Assembly: GCA_943354965.1 (NCBI GenBank)
Contig: CALRDN010000003.1
Span: 1-64,000 of the forward strand
Direction of reading: 5' to 3'
DNA from: Candidatus Peribacteria bacterium
GTDB lineage: Bacteria; Patescibacteriota; Gracilibacteria; UBA1369; UBA12463
Length of the DNA: 64,000 nt
A model generated the notes under the pieces. That model was not told where the DNA came from, made no database searches, and worked only from the letters and a program-made list of their open reading frames with translations. Shown here in pieces: positions 14,336 to 38,413 of the stretch. Position 1 is the stretch's first letter. The number at the start of each line of letters is the position of its first letter. Position numbers and translations under genes: made by a program.

Positions 14336-17300
14336 ATGAATACACCGCTTAACATCAAAAAAATCGCCCTCATCGTCACCGGCCTCGTGGTCGTTGTCGC
14401 ATTGGGAGTTTTCTTGGGAAGGGGCAATCTCTTCAAGGGAAGCTTTATCGGAACTGAGTCCGATGCTATTCCTAGCCCTTCAGGCCTCGAGGTTACAAAA
14501 AACGCCGCTAATAAATATATCCTTAGCTGGGGCTATTCTCCAGATGCTTCTGTCTCCAAGTTCACCTATACCGATGGGGCTGGTGATAAAGTTCCCGTGA
14601 GCGCAGTATTCAATTGGACTATTAAAAATTCTGCAGGTGATACTATCGTCGATGCGGATGCGGATAATACTGCCTTCCCTTTGCCAGGGTCTACTTGTGT
14701 TAAAAATCTCAACGACCCCGATATGGGGAATTTTTTCAATGGGTATACCTGTCAGGATGTTGTCTTGAGTGATGATATCGTTGCTAAGTTTGTACCTGGA
14801 GCTACCTATACCTTCAGCGTTCAGGCCTATACGGGCGTTGTTGATAAAACAACTGATCCGGCAAACCCTACGCGACAGATTTCTAAATATGGAACGGTAA
14901 CATATATGCCAATTCCAGTCCCTACCATCACCCCTGCAAATCCTCTTGATACCGTTGCATTCAAAGGTGTTGACCCTGTGACGGGCGTGCCTCAGTTCAT
15001 TGATTATGGATGGAATGATGCAAGCTATAGGGCTGGTGATACTAATTCAAAATTTACTGATCATGATGCTTCCTATTTCGGATTTGGTTGGGAGATTACA
15101 GATGTAACTATTACCGGAGAGGCAAAAGTTATTCTCAAGAAAGATGTTTTTGGTGATCCGGGTCCACTATCGTTCCCAATCGTTGGCTCACTCATTCCGA
15201 TCGGAATGGCACCATTTACTTCTGAGGCAGCAGCAAAACAGACCTGTCTCATGAATCCAAGTGGTTTCGCTGAGAAGATCTGGACCTGCAAGACCGGCTA
15301 TATTGGCTATATTCCAGCAGTAGAAGGATTTATTGATGGCCATGCTTATGTCGTTTCTGTCAGCGTTTACAATGGCACGACGGATGTAGATGGTAATCCT
15401 GTCGCAAGTGCCCCAAAGAGTTCAAAAGCATTCGTCGTAAAGGCGACACCTGCAAAACCTGCAGATTTCGTTACGTTCAATGGAGTTGACCCTGTAACGG
15501 GTGTTCCTGGTGCTATTAACTGGGGATATGACACTTCTGCAGCAAATACATCAAATTCAAAATTTGCTGATAATTTTAAATCCTATTTCGGATTTGGTTG
15601 GGAGATTACAGATGTAACTATTACCGGAGAGGCACCAGTTGTTTTCAAGAAAGATGTTTTCGGAGATCCTGGTACAATGTTTTCATCTACAAGCAGCCCA
15701 TTTACCTCTGAGGCTTCAGCGAGAGCGACATGCTCGGTCGCACCTAGCAATTTCGATGGCAATATCTGGACCTGCAATAAGGCTTATGTTCCAGATGTAA
15801 GAGGGTATATCGATGGTCACTCATACAAAGCTACCGTGCAAGCGTACAATGGCCTTCGGGATGTTGCTGGTAATTTAGTTCCTAGCGCGCCCGTATCTTC
15901 TGGAAAATTCACTATCAAGGGAACTCCGGCAAAATCTGTCGACTATGCTATGTTCACCGAAGTTGATCCTGTGACGGGCGTTCCGCACTTCATCGACTGG
16001 GGATATGACACTTCCGCTGCAAATAAATCAAATTCTAAATTTGCCGATAACTTTAAGTCCTATTTCGGATTTGGTTGGGAGATTGCTGATGTAACTATTA
16101 CTGGAGAGGCACCTGTTATTCTGAGCAAAGGTCTCTTTGAGGATCCTGGTACGCTCGCATTCCCTTCTAGCAACCCATTCACCTCTGAGGCGATGGCACG
16201 GAATACTTGTATGGTAGATACTATTTGGACCTGCACCAGAGCATACATCCCTGCACTGAAGGGCTTTACAAATGGTCACTCATACAAAGCTACCGTGAAA
16301 GCATATAATGGTCTTCGGGATGCAAATGGCCTCGATGTTGGAAGTGCTCCTGTGACTACAAAAACATTCACCATGAAGGCTGCTAAGGTTGAGGTCGTCG
16401 CTGATTCCTCCTCTGATACCACAGCCCCAAAGGTAGTTTCAGCTACCTCGATTACTCCAAATCAAGTGAAAGTTGTCTTCTCTGAAAAGGTAAAACTTCC
16501 GGCAGTTCCAGAAAGTGCATTTTCTATTATTAATACAAACTATAAGAATGCAGATGGTACCCCTGGATCTATCAAAGTAACAGGTGTCGTTCTCGACCCT
16601 GATGACCTATCCGGAGCGACCGTTATTCTTACTACCGGCGACCAAGGCTTAGGTATGCCCTATGTTCTTACTGTAGGAAATGGCATTACGGATCTTGCTG
16701 GCAATGCTATTATTCCTGGTGCCTCCGATACCGCCGCCTTCGCCGGCACTGCCATTCAACCACCAGTACTTGATTATGTTAACGTAACCCTTCCTACAAA
16801 AGCAGGTGACAAGATTACCTTTGCCTATGGATGGAACGATTCATCCGTTAAGCCAAATGCGGCTAATACATTCCTGAAGGATTCAAATGATGCCTATCAG
16901 TTTGTATATAACTGGATCATTCGTGACGACAAGGGTACCGAAGTGTGGGCTGGAAATAGTCCATTTTCCAAAGTCTCCGAAGAACCTATTTGCTCTGTTC
17001 CAATGAGCGAGAAAGGACTATACGGTTGGATTTGCAAGAATAATAGCATTCCATTGAATGCGACATTAAAGCCTGGTCAAACCTATACTCTTGGCGTTCA
17101 AACGTTCTTCAAAAGTAATTATTCCACATTCCTCACCTTCTCCAAACCATTTATTATGCCTGCTGCTGCGATGACTCCCGTGACTCCGGTGACGCCTGTC
17201 GTTGTCATTCCCCCAACCATGACTCTCAAGAATTTGAGCGTGAAGAAGTTGACGGATGGAAACGTGGCTCTTACGTATACAATTGATCTTGCCGGAAAGT

Positions 17301-20816: not shown

Positions 20817-21314
20817 ATGAAAATATTCAAAAAAGGTTTCACGCTCATTGAGCTCCTGATCGTCATCGTAATCATCGGTATTTTGTCTGTAGGATTTGCT
20901 CCTACACTTTTGAATGCGCCGAAAAAGGCGAGGGATGGCATCAGAAAAGGAAATATAGCGAGCATTAAGGATGCGATTGAGGCGCAAGCGCTAGAGAAGG
21001 GTGTGTATCCAACTACAAACAATGGATTAACATGCAAAACTCTAAATGCATATTTCGCTGGTACCACCTATTTTCAAGGTGGACAAATACCAAAAGACCC
21101 AGCTCCCGCCAACTCCGCATGTCCTTCCAATGAGGGTTATTTATTTGCCAACTACGATTCAGCAAAATGCTATGTAATTGGGGCTAAGTTAGAAATAAGC
21201 GGCTCTGGCAATAGTAATGTTAATAATACTAGCATGGGGTTCTGCACTGATCCTACTAAGTTGATAAGCGGAGCTACTTCAAAGGATTATTATTATGTGA
21301 TAGTCAATTACTGA
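20817..21314 (+). CDS. Type IV pilin/pseudopilin 1
   Basis: Prepilin motif KKGFTLIELLIVIVIIGILSVGFAPTLLN; TGA stop. Confidence 0.93.
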   Translation: MKIFKKGFTLIELLIVIVIIGILSVGFAPTLLNAPKKARDGIRKGNIASIKDAIEAQALEKGVYPTTNNGLTCKTLNAYFAGTTYFQGGQIPKDPAPANSACPSNEGYLFANYDSAKCYVIGAKLEISGSGNSNVNNTSMGFCTDPTKLISGATSKDYYYVIVNY

Positions 21315-21444: not shown

Positions 21445-21945
21445 ATGAAAAAGCTTCTCCAGAGGCGGCAGGGATTCACGCTCATTGAGCTCCTTATCGT
21501 CATCGTTATCATCGGAATTTTGTCAGTAGGATTTGCTCCTACACTTTTGAATGCGCCGAAGAAGGCTCGTGATGGTGTCAGAAAAGGACAGATTGCACGT
21601 ATTCAGCAGGCGGTTGAGGCATATGCGTTGGATCAGTCAAAATATCCTGCTACGGGATGCATCACTTCTGACACCGATGTTGGCAAAGCACTGGCTCCAT
21701 TTTTCCAAGGAAGTGTACTACCAAAAGATCAATCTGTTCAGGCATTTGATGCCGATCCAAAACCTACTGCCGCATGCGCTAGTGGTTTCTATTTCTACAA
21801 TCCAGGCTCATGCTATGCCATTATGACAAAACTTGAGGTTGGACCAGGAAATACCGATAAACTTACTCCTGACTGTGCAGCATCTCTGAATACTGGTACG
21901 GATCAGAAGTTAACTCCCTATTTTGCTGTCACTCAGAAGTACTAG
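21445..21945 (+). CDS. Type IV pilin/pseudopilin 2
   Basis: RRQGFTLIELLIVIVIIGILSVGFAPTLLNAPKKARDGVRKG, nearly identical N-terminus to pilin 1. Confidence 0.93.
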   Translation: MKKLLQRRQGFTLIELLIVIVIIGILSVGFAPTLLNAPKKARDGVRKGQIARIQQAVEAYALDQSKYPATGCITSDTDVGKALAPFFQGSVLPKDQSVQAFDADPKPTAACASGFYFYNPGSCYAIMTKLEVGPGNTDKLTPDCAASLNTGTDQKLTPYFAVTQKY

Positions 21946-21982
21946 TCTTTCATAATCTTTCTGGGCGGTATGCGCGTGTCGT

Positions 21983-24900
21983 GTGCCGCCCGAGTTGTTC
22001 TTTCAGAAGTTTCACTCCGTACTTTTCATGCCTCATTTCTCGCTCAAGCACAGCATTGTTGCCGTCGTCTTGGCTGCCTTTCTGGCGGCGAATGTGGTGC
22101 AGGTGCCGGTGGTGTTTGCGGAGGCTATTTCGACGTATGGGGTGGATGAGAAGGGTAGTGATTTTGGGCTTATGGGAGCCAATGTGAAGGATGCACATGA
22201 TTTGGTGGCGATTGTGGTGAGTGAGGATGTGTGGAATGATTCGCAAAAATATGCAGGATTATCGGGGTCGTATGATGATGTCGATAAGGAAAAATTACAG
22301 AATCGCGTGAAGCGATATGCGGAGGATGTTCAGGCAGCGTTGCCGAAGACAAATACGATAATTATTCCTGTTTCCGGTGCAGCGGAGAGTGTTTTGAAGG
22401 TGCAGCAGGTGTTGGAAAAATTATATTTAGGAGGACAAAAAGTCAGCGGTAATGCGACGCAGCTGAGTGGCGTGGTTTTGGTGGGGAATGTACCACTACC
22501 GGTGGTCACGAAGGGGTCACAGTCGTTTATAAGTGTTTTGCCGTATACGGATTTCGTAGAGCCGAGTTATGTTTTTGATGCTGGTTTGCAGAAGTATACA
22601 AGAAGCCCATCCGCTCCTGCGGCTCCAAAAGCGGAGATTTGGCATGGAGTGATTCATGCGCCGGTAAAGGGTTTGCAGGGAATGGGTATGTTGGCGGAAT
22701 ATTTTGATAAAAATCATTTGTACCATAGTGGGAACAAAGATTTCTCTGAGTTTGGTAAAAAAATTCTTTATAATGATTTGGTTGCGGAGTCGAAGAATAT
22801 GAATCGTGCGAGCTTTCCGCGATACCAGCAGTTTTTGAAAGAGATGGAAGATATTGTGTATAGTCGATTCAGTGCTAAGTGGCTCTCTGCCTTGCAAAAA
22901 CAGTTTGACGGAGGAACGGGAGAACCGATCACTGACATCCCTGATATCCAAACCGTACAGCCGATACAGAGTTATCATTTGAGCTATCCTGAACTTTTTG
23001 GGACGTTACTGGGTTCGATTACGGATTTTGCGACGGGCAGTGGCAGGTGGAGCGAGGATGATGTTGAGAGCATGCCTTCACTCATTGCAAAGAAGGATGC
23101 CTACATGATGCAGACCATTCGAGAGACCAATGATGCTATTGAGGCAAAGATTGATACTGAGCTCGAGGCCGTCCAGAAGCCACTTCCGCTCTACCGTGAT
23201 ACGACGATTGAGGGCGTGGTGCGATATCAAAATCCAGGGAAGATAGGTTTACTGAAGAGTATTGCCTCTACATTGTCCGGTAAAATTACTTCGAATGATT
23301 ATTTGATTGGAGGTGGTAAATTTGTTTTTACGAATAACTCTGTCATCGCGGGGATACAGTATGTAAATGGTGTTGCTTCCGGTGATATCGTGCGGGCACA
23401 GCAGTGCTCGACGTATGCGGGAAGCTCGCAGATCGTTCGTTTTATTCGTTCTTTGAATCCTCTAACTATCAATGTGAGCGGAGCTACGGGTGCGGCAGGT
23501 GAATCTGATAATGCGAAAAATCCTGGACTGCTGCCGACACTTGGAGTGACAACCAGAACGCTGAGCTCGAGTGAGGCGTCGAAATTAAGTCAGGGTAATA
23601 TCCTGCACGGAGCGATCGTTGAGGCGGATAAAGAGTTGGGATTGCCGGCGAAGTTTGCGGCGGTGAGCCTGAATCAGGGGGATATTTTGTTAGATCTCGA
23701 TGGGGCCACTATTGATGAAGATCATCCCGTTCCCTCGCTTCTGCAGACGAAAAGCGTGGGCCAGAAGGTTCAGATTGGGCTGTATCGTGACGGAAAAACA
23801 CTGAGTGCCAATTCGGTAATACTTGATGCTAATTCTGATTCTCTCGTAGCGGGATGCTATGGAATTAATTTCACGAATGAAAAAAATGTCATCGCGGGAA
23901 AAGAAAAACGTCTTTGCTTCCCATTGGCAAGTACCTATCCGATTGCTGATCATGCCGGGACGACTCCGATTGATAGTATTGTGGGATTAAGCGATATGGA
24001 TCGCGGCTTGAGCTGTACGTCGTTTCGCGGACAGAAGCAGTTCAACACCTTCATGGATGAGGTAAGAAAATATTTGGGCGACTCGAGAAGTGATGGCCCA
24101 TCGGGACTTACCGTTCCTAATTTGCCAACGCAGGAGCCATCAAAGATTTTGCTACTTGAGAAGAAATTGGTGCTCGGAGCGCCGCAGGATTTTTCTTTTC
24201 AGCAGTTTTTGGACCTGCAGGGAATTATGAATGTACAGGATGATAATGGTGATTATTCCGATACCAATGCGAACGGAAAGGTTGATCAGATTGCGTGGAT
24301 TGATTATAACGGAAATGGAAAGTTGGATTTGTGGGTGAATCCTAAACTTACCGGGAGTTCGGTGAATGTCGTGAGTTTGCCAGGCGAGGATGACCTCTTG
24401 TCGGTGCTATTTAGTAAACTACCTTTATCGCTGAGCGTAGAGGAGTACAGGGCGAAATTTCCTCAGTTCTTCCAGGGATCGAAATACGTGGGACCTTATA
24501 CGGGAGAGTTTGTGGGTGGAGATTTCGGCGTAGATGACCCATCAGAAATTGGATTTGGATATAAACCACTTGGGACAAGTGAGGCTGAGCGCTGGGGAAA
24601 TATTCAGAAAAAATATTTGGAAGTTGTATCTCCTATTGTATATGCCACACCCCGCAGAGCTCCGACGCAGCAGGAATATCGAGCACACTTGCAGGCGATG
24701 CAAAAAAATCATCCGGGTTTAAAACTGGATGTGCTGAATTTATTGTATGGAGGAAGTAGTTGCATCACTTCGGGCACGGGATGCGTGGATGAACTCCTGC
24801 AGATTGATGGCTTGCGCAAGAGCACTTCTGATATATGGATGAGATTCTCTTCCTTAAAAGAAAAAGATATTTCCAGCGTGGGATATCACAAAGAGCCTAC

Positions 24901-27900
24901 CGCTGCGACACTCGGCGCACAGTTCAAGGGCGTTCTCTCGTCGGCTCTTCCTATCGATAAACCACGGCATGCAACCTTCATAGACAAAAGTGGTTCGGCA
25001 AAAACGTTTATCTATCCGAATGTTTTTTCTGTATCAACCTATAGCGAGCTAGTGAAGAAACTTGGAGAGAGTGAGAAAAGTTTGACTGAATATGGGGATT
25101 CCAAGAGTAATGGCTTGCTGACGGCAATGTTTTCAGCGGATGAGGCGAAGAAAATTCAATCGCTCTTGGATTGGAGGGGTTTGAGTTTGGATCAGAAACA
25201 TGCACGGATCATGTTGGAATATCTCAATCCATCTGTCGACGGATATATCGATGACTCACCGCTCGGATATGAGGCGATGTATTTTGTCGCTAATGGGAAG
25301 CCGACATCCTATGCTACCGACTTCTCGGGAGAGGGACTTGTCACGGAAGATGACCCTGAATATATGGCTATCATGAGCGGAGATAGCGTCAAGGGTCAGG
25401 GGAGTATCGTGGCCTCGGCGGCAAATGGAGTTTCTATAGATACGAGTGCGAGTGGCGGCGTTCCTGTTACTGCTGCATCCGAATCAGTTTCTGTCAGTAC
25501 AAAATCTGCTGCCGCTTCTGCGTCCTCGCCTGCCGATTTTTCGGATCCCGATGTTGTTGATATCGATAAGTGGTTTCCTGCGATTGAAAAATGGCTCGAT
25601 AATCTGAAAAATTCTTTTAAGCCTTTGGGATTAAGCCTCACGCATGTTGGTGGCTATGACTCTCTCGTGGCTCCTGGAGCCCCTCTGCAAACTCTGAAGA
25701 TATCTCTTCCAAAGATGAATCCCCTGATTGGCGGAGATAGTGTAGTTGTCGACGTTATTGGATTTGATGCCAAGGGTTCACTCGCGACGAATGATCACAC
25801 CTCTCTTGTTCGACTGGATGTTGCAGGATTGGATTCGAGTCCTGAAAGCGCGAAGGTAATTCCCGATGAGAGCGATATGCCGGATGGAGGCATCTATTTG
25901 TCTCAGGGACATGCGAGTTTCCAAATTGTTCCCGGGAAAAAAGCACAGACTATTGTTGTGAGGGCGCGAGCCACTGTGTCGGGAGCGAGCATAGCGAGCG
26001 ACAGTGTAACGCTTCGTATTTCCGAGGCGACTGATGCTGATACGGTTGTGGCGAGCGACGCATTACTAGGTGTTCCGAACTCTGTCACGTTGAACGCCGA
26101 AAATGCGATACTCATCGCTCCCACCGTCCTCCCTGCCCTGCCGCAGACCGTCTCCGTTTCGCTTTCTGATGCTGCAGGCCATCCAGTAGAGGGTCAACTT
26201 GCCTCGTATACTATTACTGTCAGTGGTCCGGTATCTGTTTCCGGAATAAGCGATTCTGATTCTAGCCGTGAAGGATATCAGGTCGAAAGTATGGGTCAGC
26301 CCATAAAAATATCTCTCACGCCAACGGCGCAGTCCGGTCAGGTCGTCATTACGGCGTCGAGCTCGAAAGATGACGGATCTCCGATGAATCGTACGCTTAC
26401 TTTGCCTATCCGTAGCGATCTCCATCTCGCCGTATCGAGCAATGTCTCTCAGCTCAAGGCTGATGATGGAACTTCCGTGGCCGTTGTTACGGCAACCGTT
26501 CGCGATGCGGGCGGAGTTATTATTCCAACCTTCTCCGGACCGGTTCATTTTTCTATTGATGACACGAAACTTGGAATCTTCTCTTCGCAGACACCTACGC
26601 ATTTTTCCAAGGGTCAGGCCGTTGTAACCCTTCAATCAAGTACGCGCAGTGGAAATGTGCATGTAATAGTTGATGGCTCAGGACTTCCTCCTGCCAAGGC
26701 TTCTGTTGAAATTCTCCCATTACAGGCTGCCGGTATTCAGATTGTAAATGGCGCCAAAACGCTTGCTCTTGCGGCTGGATCTAATCTTGTCCTTAACGTA
26801 GTAGATCAGTACGGCAATCTGGCTACGGAGAACTCCCTTCCTCTACAGATTCGCATAACCTCAAAAACGGAAAAATATGGCAATCTTAGATCTGCAAATG
26901 GCACGCTCTCGAAAACCCTCATAGCCTATGCTCAGCGCGGAGCCGGAGCTGTTACCGTTCAGGCAAGTGACGTTTCTGGAGCTATTCATATTGTCGCGTC
27001 CTCACCGGGACTCAGTGGCGCTGCCTATGAAATTACTACCAGTGGCGTGAGTGGTAATGGAGTTATCTCCTCTCTGAATCCAAGTGTTCTCTATGCTTCG
27101 TTTCTCGGCGGACCTTTTGGAAAAGTTTCTGAACAGAATTATCTTGCCGGCACTATGTTGTTTAGCGGGAAGATGGAGGCTGCTGCTGCCCTCTCGACTG
27201 ATGCAAAACCTCTCCATAATCTCATCAGTATTGGAGCTTATGGTGGTGTGACTGTGTTTGATTCTGCGGCTGCGATACGCGTTCTCTCCTCTAGCGAGGG
27301 TGATCCGCTACGGATGTCGCTTACGACGAATGTCGGCAAAGATACCGTAGGTGAACTGATTATCAAGCGTGATGGAAAGGCTTCTGATTATGTCAGTATG
27401 GTGGCTACGGGAACGGATGCTTATTCTTTTGCCCCTACCGGTTCCGCTGGTACTAACGGGGTAATTCGCGACTCTGAAAAAGATCTTCTCCGTATCTTTG
27501 GCAGCGGCGGTGTACAAATTCTCGATCCGAAGATTACCGTGACGTTATCGGCTACGCCTTCCAACAAATTTATCTCACTCGATGTGAGTAGTGACTCAAG
27601 TGTCATCGCTACGATCCGTATTCCCTTTGATGCCGTGAACTCTCTCGCCCTTCTCAACGCTCCTCCTGCGTCATATCAGCAGTTACCAATCGGCGTGTGG
27701 TTAGTGAATCAAATTCACAGTGGAGATTATATTTTTGAGCCGTCCTATAGCGGTTTTTCTTCGGAAGAGCCGATGGGATATAAACTTGTCAGCACACTCT
27801 CTACTGATATCACGGCGAGCGATACTATTGGCTCTTCTTCAACTTCGCTCGAGGATGCTTCCTTTACGAACGGTATTGGTTTTGCCGGAGATAATAAACA

Positions 27901-30900
27901 CATGCTCCTTCTGGCCGCCGGAAATACGGTCGGTGAGTCGCACAAATCCTATCCTTCCGAGATTGGAATCGTATTAGGTGATCCTACCGTTCGGCTTCCA
28001 GGAGCAAACGCGCCGTCGGCGATGGGCTTCTCTATGGATCTGGGAAAAAGTATCGGATCAGTCACGCAGGGCGCAAAAGTTCTTCTCCCTCTTGATGTAA
28101 ATAATGATGGCAAAAAAGATCTCCTCGTGGGCAATGAAGATGGTTCAATTCGTTATTTCCAGTATACGGGAGGCTCGGAGACGTTCCGCGATAGAGGCGA
28201 GCTGCTGCGTGTAAAGCATGGTATCTATGATGCAGGAGTTGCTGATATTGATGGGGATGGAGATGAAGATATCGTCATCGCTACAAAAGAATCCTGTACG
28301 ACGAAAGAGACATGTGTTGATATTTATCGAAATAACAAAGGATCATTTACTCGGGAGAATCTCGGGCTTGCTATCGAGCCGGATCGACGTGTCGCCGTAA
28401 TGCGGCTTGTTGATATGAATGCCGATGGTGTGCCTGATCTTCTCGTATCACTTACTAATGGCGAAATCCGTCTATTCTACAATGATGGCAAGGGTGTTTT
28501 TGAGCATAGCGGTCAGCTCATTGGCTCATTCAATGTCTCTCCTGGACAGAGGGTTCTTCTCTCGGCCGGTACGAGTGTTGCGCTGGCGGCTGGGGGAGCG
28601 AGCGTAGCGAGCGATATAACTTTCGCTTCGGATTCTCATGATAGTTTTGCGGATATATTCGCTCAGCCGGAGGGAAGTGCCAATGCCATGTTGGTTTATT
28701 TTGTCGCTAATGGCTCGTCATCCCTGAAGGGCGGTCATGTGATGTATCGAAAAATTGAGGTACCTGCGGGCATCTCAACATCAGATGCTATGGATAAACT
28801 CAAGGACGATCTTTCCGCGACACTGTCTCCAAAGGGCTCCACTGGAGCCAAATCTGAACTTACCGCTGCCGGTCAGGGTATGAGTCTCCTTATGAATGAA
28901 AATAATAAAGATGCCAATCACGATGGTATCCCTGACTATATCGATGGCTCTTCGGCGGATGACATTATCAACAAAGCCAGTAGCGTTGTCAGCTCCGTGA
29001 AATCAACTATCAAGAAGTTGCGCTGTGGCGAGGGATGTCTACCCCTACCTGTAAACTTTGCTTTTTTAGCACCCGGTCCAATTAATGTTAATGGAAAATC
29101 TGTCGGCGATGATCCTTTTGCCATTCCGGTTTTTGGTGCGGCTGGTGGTTGTTACCCTTGGCCAATTTGGCCACCGTGCCCATATACGAATAAGGCCCAG
29201 ACATTCCGTATCTACGTCTCCCCTACACTCACCGGACAGGTTGGATTTGGCATATGTTGGGGTGGTTCGTTCAAGAATGCGAAGTGTGCCGCCTTTGCTC
29301 CGAATATATCCTTTATTCCAAAAGGCCTCTGCAAGGCCATTTCCCAAAAAATGAATACCGTGCTGAAGAACGCCTCATCGTTTGGATCCGGTGGTGGCAG
29401 TGGATTTACCTCGATGATTGCGGGAGGCGGCAAGAAGTTTCCAAGTACCGATACCTCCAATACCCATACCAATAAAGAACTTCTACAGGGTTATGGTGTT
29501 GAAGCGAATGTCGCCAGCAATATTCGCATACCGGGATTCCCTGCTGCTTTCACGGACTGGATCGATCGACAAATTGAAGAAATTCTCGATAAACTTACCG
29601 ACCTCCCTGATCTCTATCTCATGTATCCGGACCTCGGTTCTGCCGGAAGAGCGGTGATACCTCAGATGTCTTCCGGCAAAATTGCAGGATACTCCACCTT
29701 CCTCGCGTGGCTCAATAGTGTCCCCTTGATTCAGATTGAGCCGAAGCCCGTTCTCCTCATTCTTCCATCTCTCACAAAGGGACAGATTTTGAAACTCGAG
29801 GCGAATCTTGGCTTGTGGCTTAATGATTTGACGCTCGAGATATTCCGCGTGAAGTCCCTCTTTGGCTGCGAAAAACAGACAAAAGATAAACGCTATATCG
29901 ATATCTGCGGATTGATTGATGTAAAAGGAAATATTCTTTTCAAGAAAATTAATGATATTTTCAAAACACTTGATGCCTATAAAGCATTTCCAAAAAAACT
30001 TCTTCAATATCGTAATATTGAGTCTAAATATATTAGTCAGATTATCAACTATCTCACCACTGTCAGCCAGTTCCTCGGTGGATATATCCGCAGACAAGAG
30101 AAACGTCTCGGAGCGTGGGTGGATATGATCAAGTCCGTGAAAAAGGCCCTGGGGCAGTGGCAATACGTCGTAGATATTACACAAAAATACGCTGAGAATT
30201 GTGATAGCTGCAAGACAGAGAGAGGCTCGCTTTTCCCTGTACTCCTCAATGCATTTGTAAATATTCCTCCACCGCCGATTATCGCTTTTCCAAAATGGCC
30301 TGACATTATCATGGACTTCTCTCGTGTTCAGACTGGCGTCAAAATTGTCTGGCCGGATCTCACCTTTGCTCCAAAACAGATTCTTCTCCCAATACTTCCT
30401 TCCATCAAACTCCCCATTGATATCAATCTTCTCGCTGAATTGGGCGGATTAGACAAATTAAGTAGTGTCAATATTTCCAAGATCACTATCGACCTCAGCG
30501 CTACCTTTGATTCTTATATTCCCGTACTACCAGCCCTTCCTGCCGTACCTTCTCTTCCTAATTTACCGGATCTTCCACCACTTCCTGCCTTCAAACTTCC
30601 TGACATCCCTCCTGCCCCTAGAATTCCCGGCTTGGACAAGATCAAAGGCGGAAGTCTGAGTAAATCTCTTGCGAGTATCAAAGATCTCCTCGAGATCGTA
30701 TGTTTAGTAAAAAAAGGATATGTGATTGTGGATGAGGATAGCGTTAAGAGCAATCTCAAGACGATGATTGAGCAGCTCACACAACGATCGTTGACTCCGC
30801 CATTGAGTATTGATCTGGAAAAAACTGTTTCCTATCCACCTATAAAATATGATGCCGTTGAGCAGATTATTCTTCGAGGAAAATTCAAATTTGAGCTGGG

Positions 30901-33900
30901 GACTGACGTTATCTACAAGACCTTCAAGAGTTTTGCCGATAGCGTAAATAGTGAAACGACTGATCTCGTGAGGGGTATAAATAGTCTAGGTGCTAAGGGC
31001 AAGTTGGGCAGTTTTAATTCTGATGAAAGTCAGATCCATCTCGTGGCTGAGCAGGCATCTGTTGATATTTCCAAGCTTCCTCTTGCGAATGGAGACAACA
31101 ATACCGTTAACGCCTCAAGTGTTCTGGGTCATCAATTACAACAATACTTAGCCGATAGAACGATCGAGATGCCCGATCTTTCGAGTGAAATCATCGCCTC
31201 TACTACCCCGCTCAGTAAATATATGGCACAGGCGAGTGCTGGTGATACTATTCCTGATTCTTCTGGATCGAGGATGGTTGCGTTGGCTACAGGAGCAGCT
31301 GAAGAGATAGGAACAGGAGCGAGTGTGGCACCTACTGCCGCTGGTGTGATGAGTGATTATGCCGATAGTGCCGCTCAGCCTGTTGGTATATTCCTTTCGA
31401 ATCCTGCGACGGGCAATGCGGAAAAACTTCTCTCCTATACTCTTGAGACCGGTCGCGATCCGGTCTTAAGTCAGATTGACGTTGATAATGATGGTGATAC
31501 CGATGTTTTCTATAGTTTCGGTGGGGATATTTATTTCAAAGAAAATCAGACAAAACATACTACCGATGCCTACAATGAAGTAGATACCTCGAGCCCGATG
31601 GTGTCTTCATTGGAAGATCTCTCACCGGCCGCAGGAGGAGTGAATGGAGTCTCTTTTGATGACTCACAACGTGATCTCATCACGCTTTCATGGAATGCCT
31701 CGGTTAACAGTATTGGATATGAACTTGATTTGTGGAGTGTAGAAAATGGCTTGCAGAGGCGCCAATACCTATTGCCAGTTGCCAGTGGTCAGATCCCCTA
31801 TAATGCAAGTATTGTGACTGAAGAAATTTCTGATGATAATTCCGTATCGATTTCACTGTCGTTACCATATGGGAATACCTACTTCCAGATCGTTCCGCTT
31901 GGGGCAAAGGGTGCGAAAGGTACGCCATCCTCTGTGCATTTGTTCGCGCCACAAATTTGCGGAGATTCTACGCCTCCTCTTTCCTCGCTTGAGGGTGGAA
32001 TAGGTGGAGAGAGTGCCGGCGGAGTTGCTGGTGGTGCCACGGGAGATGATATCCGTAGCGTCGCCCTAGGCAAAACACTATCTATCAATTTATCTGGCAT
32101 CGTCGATGTGAAGTCGCAGATTGTGAAATATTATGCCGATTCTGACCTCTCAAAGGACTCAAATGGTGATGGTAATCCGGAAAATGATAACGATGTGAGT
32201 TCTACGCTACCATCATTGACGTTTGGTCCTTATTTCAAAAATGGCGATGTGAATGTGAAGGTGTTTGCAGAAAATGCCCATGGCAATGTGAGTGAACAGG
32301 TACTTGGCATTCGTGTCTATGTTCCAAATATTTTTCTCAAACATGCCTCTGCGCAAGACGGCAGTGTCTATGGGTATATCAGTCCCGGCGAGGGTGATGT
32401 TCCTTTCTCTCTTGTTCGCGAAAGAGGAGGTAACGCCGAGATTGTTGGAGATTATCTAACTGACTCCGTAGGAAACTTCTCCGTGAGTGGATTGCAGACT
32501 TCCGGCAAGACCGTTATTCGCAATATAAAGAATGAAATTGTGGCCGAGTACGAAAGCGAGACTGGAAAGTTCCGCATTTTAATGACCGGATATTCGCTAC
32601 GTGCTCACGTTGCCGCTCCCGCTTATCTGGCGACCGTAGAAGTTGTTGATTCAAACGGAACGGTACTGGCTAGCTCATTTGCCGTGCCGGATGCCAATAC
32701 TGATGTTACCAATGATCCTGCCTCGCTCCCCTATACTCCAACCACCGTGGGGGTTATGAAAGGTGTTCATGTCGCCGACCGAAACGAAAGTGATTCCGTC
32801 CTGCTCAAGAGTATTCCTGCGGATGATCCGGCTTATTTCGGTGGAACAGAAATCGTACGTCGAGATACCAATGGCGATACGAGACTGGCCCTTATCGACT
32901 CTAGCGCGCATATACTCATTACTGACGAGCGTGTATCCATTCGACTGAGGGACGTAGCCGATATGCCTTATTCGTTTGAAGTCTTGTTGGACTCCAAGGT
33001 TATTGGAGAGATATTTATCGCTACAAAAATTCCTTCGAAACCTATTATTCTAGATCCGACCGAGTTCTCTATTCCTGCGAGTACATCCGTAGACGCACAG
33101 GTCGCTGCTATTCCTATCGAATCCCTGACTCCTTCGTCAAACTTTTCCGATATTGCCAAGGGGACCGAGCTCTACAGTGCTGTATCTGCACTGCAGGGCG
33201 ATGGTATTATTGAGGGATATCAAGAAAACGGACAACAGGTGTTTAAACCAGATCAGGCGATCTTGCGCGCGGAATACACCAAGATCGTGCTCAAGGCATT
33301 ATGTATTGTTCCGCGCGCCTCAGCCTACCAAGCCCCATCCCCCTTCTCTGATATTACCTTCACTCAGCCAGTATCCTGGTTCTATCCGTTCGTGAAGGAA
33401 TCATTCTTGCTTAATTTGATTACGGGATATACAGGGGAGAAAAACGCCTCAGGCGTTTCCCCATTCAAGCCACTTGCCTATATCTCACGCGCTGAGTCGG
33501 TAAAAATTCTCATAGAAGCACTACGTATGTTGAATGTCATCCGTCTCGACTCTGTAAGTATCGGCTCAAGCGAGGCCTGGTATGCGCCATTTATGAAGGT
33601 TGGCCAAAATCTTACACCCTATACTATTGCACCAACCGCCAGCTCTTCCGCAAAGACGAAGGAGTCTTTTATCATCACTCCTTCCGAGTCACAATCTCCA
33701 AATTATCGCATGACACGAGGTGATTTTGCCATCATGGCTGCTCGAGTTTTCAAAACGTACGACTGCTACAAAGATTCCCGTGACGCCAAATTAAAAAAGC
33801 TCCAGGAAGATATGGCCCTTCAGCAAAAGACAGTGCAGGACGCCGCACAAAAAGCACTAGACGCCAAGCGATCGGCGGCATTTACTCAACTCCAAAAAAC

Positions 33901-34102
33901 ACTTTCTCAGAAAACTTCCAAGCTCTCGCCAGGCATCTATGCATTCCTTCCTGTTTGCAACTCCTGCCCATGCGCCTCAGTCATAGATAATACCGGCCAG
34001 CTCTTACCAGGAGATCGAATTTTTGCAATACTATCTACAAAGGATCATGCAACTATTCTCAAAAAAAGTAATGTTATTATTCTTCCTATCTTACAGCCAT
34101 AA
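21983..34102 (+). CDS. Giant multidomain surface protein (about 4000 aa) with Ig-like, FG-GAP/Ca-binding and C-terminal SLH domains
   Basis: Signal-like HSIVAVVLAAFLAANVVQVPVVFAE; Big_1-like region; VNNDGKKDLLVGNEDGS repeats; SLH-like SNFSDIAKGTELYSAVSALQGDGIIEGY and PFSDITFTQPVSWFYPFVKES. The start may be ATG 22028. Confidence 0.9.
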   Translation: MPPELFFQKFHSVLFMPHFSLKHSIVAVVLAAFLAANVVQVPVVFAEAISTYGVDEKGSDFGLMGANVKDAHDLVAIVVSEDVWNDSQKYAGLSGSYDDVDKEKLQNRVKRYAEDVQAALPKTNTIIIPVSGAAESVLKVQQVLEKLYLGGQKVSGNATQLSGVVLVGNVPLPVVTKGSQSFISVLPYTDFVEPSYVFDAGLQKYTRSPSAPAAPKAEIWHGVIHAPVKGLQGMGMLAEYFDKNHLYHSGNKDFSEFGKKILYNDLVAESKNMNRASFPRYQQFLKEMEDIVYSRFSAKWLSALQKQFDGGTGEPITDIPDIQTVQPIQSYHLSYPELFGTLLGSITDFATGSGRWSEDDVESMPSLIAKKDAYMMQTIRETNDAIEAKIDTELEAVQKPLPLYRDTTIEGVVRYQNPGKIGLLKSIASTLSGKITSNDYLIGGGKFVFTNNSVIAGIQYVNGVASGDIVRAQQCSTYAGSSQIVRFIRSLNPLTINVSGATGAAGESDNAKNPGLLPTLGVTTRTLSSSEASKLSQGNILHGAIVEADKELGLPAKFAAVSLNQGDILLDLDGATIDEDHPVPSLLQTKSVGQKVQIGLYRDGKTLSANSVILDANSDSLVAGCYGINFTNEKNVIAGKEKRLCFPLASTYPIADHAGTTPIDSIVGLSDMDRGLSCTSFRGQKQFNTFMDEVRKYLGDSRSDGPSGLTVPNLPTQEPSKILLLEKKLVLGAPQDFSFQQFLDLQGIMNVQDDNGDYSDTNANGKVDQIAWIDYNGNGKLDLWVNPKLTGSSVNVVSLPGEDDLLSVLFSKLPLSLSVEEYRAKFPQFFQGSKYVGPYTGEFVGGDFGVDDPSEIGFGYKPLGTSEAERWGNIQKKYLEVVSPIVYATPRRAPTQQEYRAHLQAMQKNHPGLKLDVLNLLYGGSSCITSGTGCVDELLQIDGLRKSTSDIWMRFSSLKEKDISSVGYHKEPTAATLGAQFKGVLSSALPIDKPRHATFIDKSGSAKTFIYPNVFSVSTYSELVKKLGESEKSLTEYGDSKSNGLLTAMFSADEAKKIQSLLDWRGLSLDQKHARIMLEYLNPSVDGYIDDSPLGYEAMYFVANGKPTSYATDFSGEGLVTEDDPEYMAIMSGDSVKGQGSIVASAANGVSIDTSASGGVPVTAASESVSVSTKSAAASASSPADFSDPDVVDIDKWFPAIEKWLDNLKNSFKPLGLSLTHVGGYDSLVAPGAPLQTLKISLPKMNPLIGGDSVVVDVIGFDAKGSLATNDHTSLVRLDVAGLDSSPESAKVIPDESDMPDGGIYLSQGHASFQIVPGKKAQTIVVRARATVSGASIASDSVTLRISEATDADTVVASDALLGVPNSVTLNAENAILIAPTVLPALPQTVSVSLSDAAGHPVEGQLASYTITVSGPVSVSGISDSDSSREGYQVESMGQPIKISLTPTAQSGQVVITASSSKDDGSPMNRTLTLPIRSDLHLAVSSNVSQLKADDGTSVAVVTATVRDAGGVIIPTFSGPVHFSIDDTKLGIFSSQTPTHFSKGQAVVTLQSSTRSGNVHVIVDGSGLPPAKASVEILPLQAAGIQIVNGAKTLALAAGSNLVLNVVDQYGNLATENSLPLQIRITSKTEKYGNLRSANGTLSKTLIAYAQRGAGAVTVQASDVSGAIHIVASSPGLSGAAYEITTSGVSGNGVISSLNPSVLYASFLGGPFGKVSEQNYLAGTMLFSGKMEAAAALSTDAKPLHNLISIGAYGGVTVFDSAAAIRVLSSSEGDPLRMSLTTNVGKDTVGELIIKRDGKASDYVSMVATGTDAYSFAPTGSAGTNGVIRDSEKDLLRIFGSGGVQILDPKITVTLSATPSNKFISLDVSSDSSVIATIRIPFDAVNSLALLNAPPASYQQLPIGVWLVNQIHSGDYIFEPSYSGFSSEEPMGYKLVSTLSTDITASDTIGSSSTSLEDASFTNGIGFAGDNKHMLLLAAGNTVGESHKSYPSEIGIVLGDPTVRLPGANAPSAMGFSMDLGKSIGSVTQGAKVLLPLDVNNDGKKDLLVGNEDGSIRYFQYTGGSETFRDRGELLRVKHGIYDAGVADIDGDGDEDIVIATKESCTTKETCVDIYRNNKGSFTRENLGLAIEPDRRVAVMRLVDMNADGVPDLLVSLTNGEIRLFYNDGKGVFEHSGQLIGSFNVSPGQRVLLSAGTSVALAAGGASVASDITFASDSHDSFADIFAQPEGSANAMLVYFVANGSSSLKGGHVMYRKIEVPAGISTSDAMDKLKDDLSATLSPKGSTGAKSELTAAGQGMSLLMNENNKDANHDGIPDYIDGSSADDIINKASSVVSSVKSTIKKLRCGEGCLPLPVNFAFLAPGPINVNGKSVGDDPFAIPVFGAAGGCYPWPIWPPCPYTNKAQTFRIYVSPTLTGQVGFGICWGGSFKNAKCAAFAPNISFIPKGLCKAISQKMNTVLKNASSFGSGGGSGFTSMIAGGGKKFPSTDTSNTHTNKELLQGYGVEANVASNIRIPGFPAAFTDWIDRQIEEILDKLTDLPDLYLMYPDLGSAGRAVIPQMSSGKIAGYSTFLAWLNSVPLIQIEPKPVLLILPSLTKGQILKLEANLGLWLNDLTLEIFRVKSLFGCEKQTKDKRYIDICGLIDVKGNILFKKINDIFKTLDAYKAFPKKLLQYRNIESKYISQIINYLTTVSQFLGGYIRRQEKRLGAWVDMIKSVKKALGQWQYVVDITQKYAENCDSCKTERGSLFPVLLNAFVNIPPPPIIAFPKWPDIIMDFSRVQTGVKIVWPDLTFAPKQILLPILPSIKLPIDINLLAELGGLDKLSSVNISKITIDLSATFDSYIPVLPALPAVPSLPNLPDLPPLPAFKLPDIPPAPRIPGLDKIKGGSLSKSLASIKDLLEIVCLVKKGYVIVDEDSVKSNLKTMIEQLTQRSLTPPLSIDLEKTVSYPPIKYDAVEQIILRGKFKFELGTDVIYKTFKSFADSVNSETTDLVRGINSLGAKGKLGSFNSDESQIHLVAEQASVDISKLPLANGDNNTVNASSVLGHQLQQYLADRTIEMPDLSSEIIASTTPLSKYMAQASAGDTIPDSSGSRMVALATGAAEEIGTGASVAPTAAGVMSDYADSAAQPVGIFLSNPATGNAEKLLSYTLETGRDPVLSQIDVDNDGDTDVFYSFGGDIYFKENQTKHTTDAYNEVDTSSPMVSSLEDLSPAAGGVNGVSFDDSQRDLITLSWNASVNSIGYELDLWSVENGLQRRQYLLPVASGQIPYNASIVTEEISDDNSVSISLSLPYGNTYFQIVPLGAKGAKGTPSSVHLFAPQICGDSTPPLSSLEGGIGGESAGGVAGGATGDDIRSVALGKTLSINLSGIVDVKSQIVKYYADSDLSKDSNGDGNPENDNDVSSTLPSLTFGPYFKNGDVNVKVFAENAHGNVSEQVLGIRVYVPNIFLKHASAQDGSVYGYISPGEGDVPFSLVRERGGNAEIVGDYLTDSVGNFSVSGLQTSGKTVIRNIKNEIVAEYESETGKFRILMTGYSLRAHVAAPAYLATVEVVDSNGTVLASSFAVPDANTDVTNDPASLPYTPTTVGVMKGVHVADRNESDSVLLKSIPADDPAYFGGTEIVRRDTNGDTRLALIDSSAHILITDERVSIRLRDVADMPYSFEVLLDSKVIGEIFIATKIPSKPIILDPTEFSIPASTSVDAQVAAIPIESLTPSSNFSDIAKGTELYSAVSALQGDGIIEGYQENGQQVFKPDQAILRAEYTKIVLKALCIVPRASAYQAPSPFSDITFTQPVSWFYPFVKESFLLNLITGYTGEKNASGVSPFKPLAYISRAESVKILIEALRMLNVIRLDSVSIGSSEAWYAPFMKVGQNLTPYTIAPTASSSAKTKESFIITPSESQSPNYRMTRGDFAIMAARVFKTYDCYKDSRDAKLKKLQEDMALQQKTVQDAAQKALDAKRSAAFTQLQKTLSQKTSKLSPGIYAFLPVCNSCPCASVIDNTGQLLPGDRIFAILSTKDHATILKKSNVIILPILQP
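28090..28500 (+). repeat. Coding region for FG-GAP/VCBS-type Ca-binding repeats
   Basis: DVNNDGKKDLLVGNEDGSIRYF, DIDGDGDEDIVIATK, DMNADGVPDLLVSLTNGEIRLFYNDG. Confidence 0.8.
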
Positions 34103-34104
34103 CT

Positions 34105-34728
34105 ATGAGTCAACGCGTTCGTCATTATAGTGCCTATATTTTCGGTTCACTGATCGGTGTCGCCATGTTCGTCGCCGTGTCTACCGGTGTACCGATGATT
34201 TTCGCTCAGGTCAGTCCCGTATCAGCCCCTGACGCAATAGTATCTACACCCATAAGCGCTGCCGACCAGAGCTGTAGAGATGCGATGCCTCCTATCTTTG
34301 CCGCAGAACAAAAGAAATTTGTAGATTTCATGAATAATCATTTCAAAAATGCAGCACCTACTTCCACGCTTCTCCAGACCGGACTCGACCGTCTTCAGAA
34401 CTATCGCAGCACCCTCATCACCGCGCGAAATTCATTTGCACTCACTTCCGTCTACCAATCAGCGGCCAGCGGCGAATCATCACTCTGTGATAATGATGTT
34501 AACGCTCAAATCTTGATTGCCGAGCAGACCTTTCAGTCTTATGTCGAGGAGACCGCCTTTTCCAAAAAATCTACCGCCCTTACGGAAAAATTATCCGGTA
34601 TCAATGGAAAACTGCGCACATTGAATGAGCTTCTCATCCAACTCAATGGCTATTTTGCCTCATTCGATAGCGCTCTCCCGGGCTTCACTCAAAAATGTAT
34701 CAAAAAAGATGGTAGCACGACTCCGTAA
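34105..34728 (+). CDS. Exported hypothetical protein
   Basis: N-terminal hydrophobic segment (SAYIFGSLIGVAMFVAVSTGVPMIFAQ); 2 nt after the giant gene. Confidence 0.75.
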   Translation: MSQRVRHYSAYIFGSLIGVAMFVAVSTGVPMIFAQVSPVSAPDAIVSTPISAADQSCRDAMPPIFAAEQKKFVDFMNNHFKNAAPTSTLLQTGLDRLQNYRSTLITARNSFALTSVYQSAASGESSLCDNDVNAQILIAEQTFQSYVEETAFSKKSTALTEKLSGINGKLRTLNELLIQLNGYFASFDSALPGFTQKCIKKDGSTTP

Positions 34729-34746
34729 TTTTACTGATTCTCTCTT

Positions 34747-35490
34747 ATGTCTTTCTTTTCTCCTACTCATTCCCATACAACAAAAAAACACTCCCCAAAG
34801 AGTGCCCTAAGTCATGGTGTTTTTTCTGGTGTTTTGGTGAGCTTACTTATCTCTCTTGCTCTTCAGTTCCTTCCTCTCACGTCGAATGCCGCTGATAATA
34901 GCCCTTTCTCCGTGAAGGATTTAGCAAAAATTGCGAGTCAGCTCGAGAATGTCGATAGCTCTATGGAAAGTCTGAGCTCTCTCTACCACCAGACGGTGAA
35001 CAATATCGTCAACGCTTATATGGACGGCTTTACCAAAAACAATGCCGATAACAAGGCTCTCGTTGCGCCGCCAAAAGATCCCGCCGAGTGCACAACCGTA
35101 GGTGCAAAAATGAACCTCAGTACCTACTGCCTCTTTCTCCGTATTGATGGACTGTATATCCCATACTCCAATACCCTAAAACTCAAACAAAGTACGGTAT
35201 TACAAGATATTGCCGCCATCCAGCAGGGGAAGAATTATCTGGATAATACTGCAAACGACTACCGCCTTCGCCAGGATTGGATCAACAAGGAACTTACCGC
35301 ATCTCGCAGCGCCCTCGATAACGTTCTGCGCGCCTATAGCGAACTCCTCATTCAATATCCGATGCATTTGGAGTATCAAAAAACACTCAAGCTCCTCATC
35401 AAATATTACGATCACCTCTCTGATGTTCGCAAGAAAGTCTCTACCTATCCTGCACGATTCCAAGACGTCACGACCGCTAACTGCACCTAA
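34747..35490 (+). CDS. Exported hypothetical protein, helical
   Basis: Signal-like GVFSGVLVSLLISLALQFLPLTSNAA; tightly spaced in the operon. Confidence 0.75.
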   Translation: MSFFSPTHSHTTKKHSPKSALSHGVFSGVLVSLLISLALQFLPLTSNAADNSPFSVKDLAKIASQLENVDSSMESLSSLYHQTVNNIVNAYMDGFTKNNADNKALVAPPKDPAECTTVGAKMNLSTYCLFLRIDGLYIPYSNTLKLKQSTVLQDIAAIQQGKNYLDNTANDYRLRQDWINKELTASRSALDNVLRAYSELLIQYPMHLEYQKTLKLLIKYYDHLSDVRKKVSTYPARFQDVTTANCT

Positions 35491-35501
35491 ACTTCCTCCT
35501 C

Positions 35502-37277
35502 ATGAGACGCTCATTCCTCATATCAACTACACTCACCCTACTGCTCATTGGAGCGGCAATGGGTGTCGAACGCGATATGGGAATGGGTAGTGCTGTGCGA
35601 ATGACACGCGCTGCATTTGCGGCATCTGATATACCCGTGCTCGATCCTCCACCTACCACCCACGCCGTTTTTTCTACAATGCTTCGGGCTGTAGGTATCG
35701 ATAATCCAAGCGGTGAGATTACCTCTGGTGATGTATTCGGGGATACTCCCAAAAATCTCTATACCTATGTTTATCAGCAGATATTTGAGCGTCCCGACCA
35801 AGATGCCATGATGGATATTGCAGGCGGTTATGGTCTCACCCCCGTTGATGCGCGCGCTGTATTGCAGGGATCAGTCGCACCATTGATGCGTGGAAAAATA
35901 AACTATACCCAGGACCGCGCTATCGCCGATGTGAACAAAATTCAGAAATCCTACGCTGAAATGCTGCGTCAACGACGAATGAAATATGAGCTTCAGCTCA
36001 CCGTCCTTCCTACAGAGATCTTCTCTAATGGAAACTTGGATGATTCCGGTTTTGATCTGATTAATGACCTTAATCTCATTGAGGAAATTCTCTTTGTCGA
36101 TAAGACAAAAGTATATTTGAATCAACAGCCGTTTGGCTCGAAGGGTTTAACTGTCAATAAAAATATTGGCTCACAGATTGGTTCAAACTCATCTACCACT
36201 TCGGGAACCGGCTCATCCGGATCTGCGAGCGGAGTTACATCCGGATCTGGAAATACTTCATCCACAACTCCTTCATCCGATAACAGCGCCAAGTCATTCA
36301 CTCTGGATAATATCCTCAAGGGCACGGCAGCAAGTGGTGGTGATTTAAACTACTGCGCATCAGGTTCTCCTCTTAACAAAGCCCTGGATCAGTATGCGAA
36401 GGATGGCGGAGCAGATGGTACGTCCGGAGCAAACACGGGGACTTCGTATGGAGACACGGGAGGTGGTTCTAATGCCACCGTCGCAACCACCATAGAAAAT
36501 ATCGATGTTGCCTCCGTAGTTCCCCCTGAACTCGCCCAGACTACCGCCATTCCTCGTGGTGTCTTCACCCCGCCAAGTGATTCATTCTGTAGCGAAATCG
36601 GTGGAACGCTTCTCTATACCTATCGTACAAAAATCGGCGGTGCGGAACATGAAATCTTCTGCATGAGTTTGGACAAAAAAATACGCACCTATACGTCATT
36701 CAGCCCTACTAAGTCATGTATTCAGTGTGCTGTCGCTGCCATGAATGAGGATATGAAAAAGCTTCTCTCTAAAAACATCACTCCAAATAAGCTTACCGGC
36801 AACATGTATGAATCCACGAAGTGCAAGTCTGCTATTAACTTTTCCGATCGCCTGAATATGAATATCATCATGGTTCCGACTCCAATCATTACACCAAATA
36901 AATATGGAATGTTTGTCGTTGGTGATATGACGAAGCGCATAAACGCCTATGTACGAAACTACCTTCCTTACGGTAATCCAAAAGATAGCCCTCCGGAACG
37001 CATCAAAGACGAGGCTGTTGCGAATCTTGGTGACTCTAGCACCATCAATGTCGTCGACCAAATCCAAGCGCAGATTGCCGCTAACAGAAAATCAATTGCC
37101 GAGAGTCAAGCCATGCAACCCATCGAACAGACTGGCGCAGCAAAGAATGCCTCATATCAGCAAGTGATCAAGGAAATGCGTCTCATGACCTCCTACTTTC
37201 AATCATTCCAGGATATTTTCGTACGTCTCGGCACAAACGCAAAAGGTATTTGCGATAAAAAAGATATTAATAGTTAA
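35502..37277 (+). CDS. Exported hypothetical protein with Ser/Gly/Thr-rich linker and Cys pairs
   Basis: Signal-like N-terminus; SGTGSSGSASGVTSGSGNTSSTTPS linker; 11-nt gap to the preceding gene. Confidence 0.75.
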   Translation: MRRSFLISTTLTLLLIGAAMGVERDMGMGSAVRMTRAAFAASDIPVLDPPPTTHAVFSTMLRAVGIDNPSGEITSGDVFGDTPKNLYTYVYQQIFERPDQDAMMDIAGGYGLTPVDARAVLQGSVAPLMRGKINYTQDRAIADVNKIQKSYAEMLRQRRMKYELQLTVLPTEIFSNGNLDDSGFDLINDLNLIEEILFVDKTKVYLNQQPFGSKGLTVNKNIGSQIGSNSSTTSGTGSSGSASGVTSGSGNTSSTTPSSDNSAKSFTLDNILKGTAASGGDLNYCASGSPLNKALDQYAKDGGADGTSGANTGTSYGDTGGGSNATVATTIENIDVASVVPPELAQTTAIPRGVFTPPSDSFCSEIGGTLLYTYRTKIGGAEHEIFCMSLDKKIRTYTSFSPTKSCIQCAVAAMNEDMKKLLSKNITPNKLTGNMYESTKCKSAINFSDRLNMNIIMVPTPIITPNKYGMFVVGDMTKRINAYVRNYLPYGNPKDSPPERIKDEAVANLGDSSTINVVDQIQAQIAANRKSIAESQAMQPIEQTGAAKNASYQQVIKEMRLMTSYFQSFQDIFVRLGTNAKGICDKKDINS

Positions 37278-37285
37278 TTTTTCTC

Positions 37286-38413
37286 ATGAAAATTTCTCGT
37301 ACTCATATCGGCAGAATCGGCAAGCTCACAGCGCTTGCTGCTTGCCTTGGTGCCATCGGCTTCATGGGAATCGTACTCGTTCCTCAGATAAGTCTTGGCG
37401 CGAGCACTAATCCTTTTATCCCCTCTAACTACCCAAACATTCAGGGTTGCCCTATTAATTCTCGTTTTGATAACTGGGGTCGATTCATCAAGGACGGTGC
37501 GTCATTCTCTGATTTCTATTCGAACTGGGGAGATATTTTCACCCGTAACTCTTGTCAGCAGCAGGATATTTTCGCTATTCAAAAAACAATCGAAGGCACC
37601 CAAAATCAACTCAGGCAAAAAATCTTTCAGTGTCAGTCTGGTGGCCTCTCCGAGCTCAGCACCAAAATTCATGAACTTCAGTTTGAACTGGAATATGTCC
37701 GCCACGTTATCGATACCGACGATGAACGTCCGGCACCCGAAGGTACTAAAGGGGAAGTTCGTCCGCCTGCGGCTATTGTTCAATATATGCTCGATAGTCC
37801 TATGCTCAAAGATGGCACTATTAGCAGCGACCGATTTGATGCGCTCTTCGCTATCGTTCAGCAAAAGTATGCTACGCGAGTCGAACAGTATCGTAACTGC
37901 AAGGATGCCGACTGGGCGGCCCTCACGAAGCAATGGAACAACTTCACCTCTACCTGGGCCGGTATTAAGCCTGCCACGCAGCAATCTGCCAAATCCCTCA
38001 ATAATCGAGTTAACGGGTTCCTAGATGCCCCCTCGGATCACAATGGCCGCTTCCTCGGTGGTCTTCTCGACATCAAAATGAATGGGCTTACTCCGGAGCG
38101 AAATCTTGCTGGAGTGTATCAGGATCTCACTCGCGATGTACGCACCGGTGCCGCAAAAAATCCCCCGGACTACTCTGTCTTCCTCAATCAAGCAGAGAGT
38201 GAACATGATCGCTACTCTCGTGACGCGGAAGACGCCAAGAGGAAGTCATATTATGAAGGCCTATTTCGATATACTTCGGATGCCTCTGGTGACGAGGTAA
38301 AGATTGAAATTCAAAAAATGAACTCTATTATTCAGGCTACCATTCAGCCGGTGATCGATAATATGCGCGCCTGTACGGCTTTGATTGCACAGAGACAGTG
38401 TGGGGGAAAGTAA
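37286..38413 (+). CDS. Exported hypothetical protein
   Basis: Signal-like LTALAACLGAIGFMGIVLVPQISLGAS; 8-nt gap to the preceding gene. Confidence 0.75.
   Translation: MKISRTHIGRIGKLTALAACLGAIGFMGIVLVPQISLGASTNPFIPSNYPNIQGCPINSRFDNWGRFIKDGASFSDFYSNWGDIFTRNSCQQQDIFAIQKTIEGTQNQLRQKIFQCQSGGLSELSTKIHELQFELEYVRHVIDTDDERPAPEGTKGEVRPPAAIVQYMLDSPMLKDGTISSDRFDALFAIVQQKYATRVEQYRNCKDADWAALTKQWNNFTSTWAGIKPATQQSAKSLNNRVNGFLDAPSDHNGRFLGGLLDIKMNGLTPERNLAGVYQDLTRDVRTGAAKNPPDYSVFLNQAESEHDRYSRDAEDAKRKSYYEGLFRYTSDASGDEVKIEIQKMNSIIQATIQPVIDNMRACTALIAQRQCGGK

Follow-up and report, generated by a model that had tools for sequence, protein, structure and literature searches.

A type IV pilus locus of Peregrinibacteria that probably carries an undescribed giant surface module

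The window analysed here is a 64,000-nucleotide stretch of contig CALRDN010000003.1, taken from the assembly GCA_943354965.1 of a Candidatus Peribacteria bacterium. The organism is a Patescibacterium of the Peregrinibacteria group (class Gracilibacteria), whose members are tiny, uncultured and probably host-dependent, and its genome of 1,163,421 bases in 23 contigs is rated 100% complete. Five genes lie on the plus strand of the window between 21983 and 38413, and they are referred to in their order as G, A, B, C and D (Table 1). The intergenic gaps are 2 nt for G/A, 18 nt for A/B, 11 nt for B/C and 8 nt for C/D. Each of the five encoded proteins has one strong, signal-peptide-like hydrophobic stretch within its first ~45 residues, and a scan of all five found no second transmembrane-like window beyond it. 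Searches of A-D against Pfam and NCBIfam returned no family match. The arrangement with its gaps, the signal-like N-termini and the lack of recognised families among the four downstream proteins had all been put forward in an earlier sequence-only reading of this DNA, and they agree with what we find.

The open reading frame of G begins at GTG 21983. A terminator-like hairpin of 13 pairs occupies 21962-21992, between the second prepilin gene and G, and overlaps this codon, whereas the signal peptide of G, MPHFSLKHSIVAVVLAAFLAANVVQVPVVFAEA, begins at ATG 22028. For these two reasons the true start of G is probably ATG 22028, which gives a protein of 4024 aa that starts 82 nt past the second pilin. 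The hairpin could attenuate read-through into G.

Table 1. Features of the pilus locus and of the five-gene block; residue positions within G are numbered from GTG 21983
Feature	Position	Strand	Remarks
PilN-like alignment protein	8868..10439	+	start of the locus; weak PF05137 PilN match, E 0.007
PilO-like protein	10446..11105	+	named by position between the PilN-like gene and pilB; no Pfam match
PilB-type assembly ATPase	11102..12370	+	422 aa; PF00437 T2SSE, E 6.6e-128; nearest solved relatives PilB ATPases, E 3e-110
PilC-type membrane platform	12354..13637	+	PF00482 T2SSF, E 1e-54
SLH-repeat surface protein	14336..18607	+	1423 aa; PF00395 SLH, E 6.9e-25, 3 stretches; inserted in the locus here
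HNH-endonuclease-like gene	18739-19557	-	identity by eye from sequence
Lactate/malate-dehydrogenase-like gene	19817-20794	+	identity by eye from sequence
Prepilin 1 (T2SSG-like)	20817..21314	+	PF07963 N_methyl, E 5.5e-8; PF08334, E 3.6e-4
Prepilin 2 (T2SSG-like)	21445..21945	+	PF07963 N_methyl, E 5.7e-9
G	ORF 21983-34102	+	opens at GTG 21983, 4039 aa; likely CDS 22028..34102, ~4024 aa
G, signal peptide		+	
G, Rossmann-like N-domain		+	
G, PDZ	residues 559-610	+	
G, Ig-like	residues ~1486-1577	+	
G, FG-GAP repeats	from residue ~2038	+	
G, conserved Cys-rich region	residues ~2340-2910	+	
G, further Ca2+-loop repeat	residue 3166	+	
G, SLH	residues 3721-3765	+	C-terminal part
G, C..CPC	near the end	+	C-terminal part
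A	34105..34728	+	exported, 207 aa; invariant C57 and C128, near-invariant C198; no family match
B	34747..35490	+	exported, 247 aa; invariant C115, C128, C246, Y197 and H207; no family match
C	35502..37277	+	exported, 591 aa; N-half helical, linker at ~205-288 of low confidence, C-half conserved and Cys-rich; no family match
D	37286..38413	+	exported, 375 aa; six conserved Cys; invariant E134, R139 and Y195; no family match

Upstream of G, an assembly ATPase, a membrane platform and two N_methyl prepilins are encoded together in the window, as in a type IV pilus assembly locus, and the genome has no T2SSF gene other than the pilC of this locus. Three T2SSE proteins are encoded in the genome: the PilB of the locus, a PilB-like protein of 582 aa (contig 16) and a protein of 346 aa (contig 4) that is PilT-like by size and start only; the pilus locus itself contains no PilT gene. 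On contig 4 (L228 8577-12690), the PilT-like gene is followed by a series of small exported proteins, which have hydrophobic segments at the C-terminus and resemble T4SS_pilin arrays. On contig 7 (L231 4011-9779), a minor-pilin-like operon includes a 666-aa protein, which is a possible PilY1 equivalent apart from G.

A stretch of 13-20 kb immediately 5' of G was surveyed in 20 genomes of the order, belonging to nine families. PilN-like and PilO-like genes, pilB, pilC and one to four prepilins precede G in that order in 19 of them, and the exception (G086) still has a prepilin, as do all 20. Because this order is maintained in 19/20 genomes and the locus holds the sole T2SSF gene, G-A-B-C-D makes up the downstream half of a type IV pilus locus with its first gene at 8868, and the linkage of the block to the pilus genes is well supported. 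The sequence-only reading had treated 21983-38413 as a unit of its own, forming one surface machine with pilins just upstream. Those boundaries have to be given up, as the locus starts at 8868, and so does the idea of an independent system; the association with pilins, together with the co-occurrence of the genes described below, stands. In most relatives nothing but pilins is encoded downstream of pilC and ahead of G; in the window, the HNH-like gene, the dehydrogenase-like gene and the large SLH protein lie between pilC and the prepilins. The latter contains three near-repeated modules, with a VPAVPAVPA linker ahead of its SLH repeats, and relatives do not consistently have it at this position.

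The five-gene block itself is deeply conserved. D is present in 71 of the 89 genomes of the order, with one copy per genome. Its surroundings were taken from 40 genomes of the order, and the 34 loci with sufficient sequence were regarded as informative; all 34 have G-A-B-C-D in this order on one strand. Among these relatives, A in L061 is recognised by profile search only, G in L048 is missed by a single-sequence search and recognised by profile, and both G and C are interrupted in L037. A second set was drawn from named MAG contigs that match the middle of G and comprises 31 loci with all five genes, of which none is out of order and in which the median gaps are 2, -11, -10 and -4 nt; the two sets share genomes and their counts are not additive. 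The named MAGs that match the middle of G are Peregrinibacteria, Peribacteria, Gracilibacteria or unassigned Patescibacteria. Since the same genes recur in the same order and on the same strand in 34/34 informative loci, the arrangement is not due to chance. An apparent absence of the G middle from some genomes of the order was discounted, as the missing part in L040 (G075) is a long run of N; G071 and G074 look like L040 and are treated as uninformative. Presence counts for G and C are probably too low in general, some stretches being read as N. A single genome (G016) has C and D fused as one 1,069-aa ORF (L063 14784-17993), which may be a natural hint that the two proteins are in contact.

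G belongs to an ortholog family with a median length of ~4,265 aa (48 sequences). Pfam detects FG-GAP_3 over three stretches (E 3.4e-16) and an Ig/invasin-type domain, and calcium-type loops of the form D.[DN].[DNS]G are observed eight times against 0.58 in shuffles. G therefore has the predicted combination of a beta-propeller with Ca2+ loops, a feature that is common to many proteins other than PilY1. Around 18 cysteines are invariant where aligned, many of them in 2340-2910, and no conserved cysteine occurs before C475. The 419-residue stretch that follows the signal is predicted as a confident alpha/beta domain (AF2, pLDDT 83.6), the fold of which has no significant match among solved or viral structures in Foldseek (E<=0.001 for solved). 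A clan CD (gingipain/caspase-like) peptidase was considered for this N-domain and rejected, there being no Pfam or PDB sequence match, no Foldseek hit and no His/Cys dyad. The profile for T4P_PilY1 (PF05567) is not among the Pfam matches of G at E<=1. It is also found in 0/89 genomes of the order, a result that is not proof of absence because the controls were silent too.

All four partners keep conserved cysteines. Besides those of A and B (Table 1), they are found at positions 285, 363, 387, 406, 409 and 441 of C, with a weaker one at 580, and at 55, 90, 116, 205, 363 and 372 of D. With three such residues apiece, A and B would each be left with one unpaired cysteine unless the two proteins are joined to each other or to G. 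The profiles of C and D gave nothing convincing against the PDB, and the predicted structure of C is poor (pLDDT 57.7). A haem c in C was rejected; many relatives have CxxCH, but the His is only 62% conserved and is Ala in the window. Profile comparison with hhalign gives probabilities of 92% for A-B and 80% for A-D, with every other pair among the four below 25%. Helical proteins reach such scores easily, and a common origin of A-D was for this reason not adopted.

Beyond the order, the distribution of G is restricted. A survey of 380 genomes from the whole phylum detects the conserved middle of G in 17 genomes of the order and four others of the class, with no match outside the class. G forms a class-restricted ortholog family and is single-copy. 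Within the class, 245 genomes of at least 90% completeness were surveyed, and G is present in 164 and C in 155. The two are found together in 143 genomes; 69 lack both, 21 have G without C and 12 have C without G (Fisher p 2e-29, uncorrected for shared ancestry). Outside the order the corresponding counts, likewise uncorrected, are 91, 67, 20 and 4. The co-occurrence could reflect few gains or losses. The sequence-only reading had suggested looking for the partners beside the giant gene in other genomes and had seen a failure to co-occur as telling against it; they do lie beside it in every informative locus, and G and C co-occur also in genomes where the two are unlinked.

The block is rearranged or broken up in those families whose genetic code assigns UGA to glycine. 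L184 and L175 have the order G, A-like gene, D-like gene, B, C, in which the A-like and D-like labels refer to position and export signals only. In the broken-up loci, C is followed by a D-like exported gene at a site apart from G, and B lies elsewhere. An initial view that G stands alone in recoded Gracilibacteria through loss of its partners was overturned, as divergent homologs of B and C exist elsewhere in the same genomes. Partners that are kept after separation support a shared function better than adjacency alone. In family f167, the isolated B is no more than 4.5 kb from a T2SSE-type ATPase in the seven loci examined, two of the ATPases being confirmed by Pfam and the others by their shared N- and C-terminal sequence. 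In family f166, B directly follows a gene for a ~800-aa TrwB/HerA-like ATPase (L179 4072-7463, L180, L189, L191, L192, L193), which in L179 is preceded by a T4SS_pilin gene. A link to type IV secretion was not taken as the main reading, since T4SS_pilin (PF18895) is found, usually in ~10-15 copies, in 245/245 genomes of the class whether or not they have G.

Taken together, the data describe a type IV pilus locus that probably encodes a giant surface module not described before. The reading that we favour, with moderate confidence, is that G-A-B-C-D forms the surface arm of this Peregrinibacteria pilus locus, in which a giant Ca2+-dependent G with disulfide-stapled partners serves contact with a partner cell. 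The filament would be built by PilB and PilC from the adjacent prepilins. G would be exported by Sec, and the SLH-type sequence towards its C-terminal end would hold it at the envelope. It would be displayed by the pilus or together with it, and would work with the pilus as a giant Ca2+-dependent multidomain protein in the manner of the PilY1 and PilX2 propeller adhesins. A-D would be exported helical proteins, stapled by disulfides, which are assembled onto G and most likely dock at its conserved Cys-rich middle. The net task would be to make contact with, or to hold on to, a partner cell. The gene block, its fixed linkage to pilB, pilC and the prepilins, the export signals, the conserved cysteines and the Ca2+-loop and propeller repeats are observed; from them we infer a physical complex of the five proteins, disulfide bonds joining A to B, display of G with the pilus and a role in adhesion. 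G is regarded as a putative pilus-linked surface protein because of its fixed place behind the assembly genes, the sole platform gene and its content of propeller and calcium-loop sequence. It is not filed in the PilY1 family, as it has no PF05567 profile match; the likeness to PilY1 is proposed for its way of working and not for its family.

Likenesses to known systems help to define the module. PilY1 and its Neisseria counterpart PilC (PF05567), a type IVa tip adhesin, are likewise large exported proteins with a beta-propeller and Ca2+-loop repeats that are encoded with pilins. G, however, is about four times larger, does not match PF05567, and has SLH, PDZ and Rossmann-like domains as well as four exported partners of unknown families. 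In the Saccharibacterium Nanosynbacter lyticus, a second type IV pilus contributes to host binding from a locus without the retraction ATPase gene pilT, and PilX2, which has a C-terminal propeller, has been proposed as the adhesin of this T4P-2 in the manner of PilY1 (PMC12206443). The resemblance lies in a patescibacterial pilus, a propeller protein needed for full host binding and an assembly locus without pilT. PilX2 is itself a putative minor pilin, whereas here the propeller is found in an exported protein of 4,000 aa that is encoded in a fixed operon with A-D. Large cysteine-rich extracellular proteins, two with an FG-GAP annotation, have been noted in Ca. Peribacter riflensis (PMC4736985), and Vampirococcus has giant membrane proteins, the longest of 4,163 aa, for which a role in host attachment was proposed (PMC8080830). 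These giants are, like G, very large and exported, and some are of FG-GAP or integrin type, the Vampirococcus proteins being likened by description. The passages covered of the two reports make no mention of this five-gene operon, of its partners or of a pilus linkage (PMC8080830, PMC4736985), and a partial literature search found no earlier account of any of the three.

Some observations count against G as the arm of a pilus, the lack of a PF05567 signature among them. The minor-pilin-like operon on contig 7 is separate and holds three more prepilins, and such an operon is the more usual place for a PilY1 equivalent. G does not adjoin prepilin genes in the UGA-recoded relatives. The conservation and single copy of G bring it nearer to a structural part than to a typical variable adhesin, and this same property suits the main alternative, in which G and A-D are not an adhesin but an envelope-anchored exit port or collar that lets the pilus through the wall and S-layer as a monoderm stand-in for the secretin. 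The SLH sequence of G, its PDZ domain with a weak GspC match (E 0.038), the fixed position of the block beside the platform gene and the export and conserved cysteines of every partner would all be in keeping with such a port. Against it, Pfam and NCBIfam gave no ring-forming or secretin-like domain, the SLH sequence (PF00395), present in the window G and in L074, was not found in the recoded ortholog tested (L109), and recoded genomes retain T2SSE genes while G lies elsewhere; we consider the port unlikely. A reading that joins both functions is rather doubtful, though it deserves statement: the envelope-anchored, disulfide-stapled five-protein complex of 4,000-5,000 residues, found across this one class and in no other sampled genome of the phylum, would define a type IV pilus component of a new kind, at once exit collar and host-contact device, replacing both PilY1 and the secretin.

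A surface coat and a secretion cargo fit less well. It is quite improbable that the five genes encode a surface layer or fibrous coat of their own, which has inherited its pilus neighbourhood without joint function. The SLH domain of G and its separation from pilus genes in the recoded relatives could be so explained, and giant proteins have been proposed to make up the fibrous surface of Vampirococcus (PMC8080830), but the pilus linkage is kept in 19/20 genomes across nine families and B is again found near T2SSE in recoded genomes. Least probable of all is a type II-like secretion system formed by PilB, PilC and the prepilins with G and A-D as its cargo, a reading in line with T2SSG-like prepilins, the placing of the PilT-like gene outside the locus and the exported proteins encoded next to the machine, but opposed by an assembly ATPase closest to PilB, by a monoderm needing no second step after Sec, and by an obligate five-gene cargo block being unusual for a T2SS.

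With the surface arm of the pilus as the favoured reading, the locus bears on how Patescibacteria find and hold their hosts, for which the block puts forward five individual proteins that can be tested for a part in host contact. It ties a deeply conserved, single-copy set of five genes, four of which encode proteins without known families, to a pilus locus of another branch of the Patescibacteria, and it gives a likely role to G, which is among the largest proteins of these small genomes. The block can further serve as a genomic marker, and it offers structural work a set of partners that are probably disulfide-linked.
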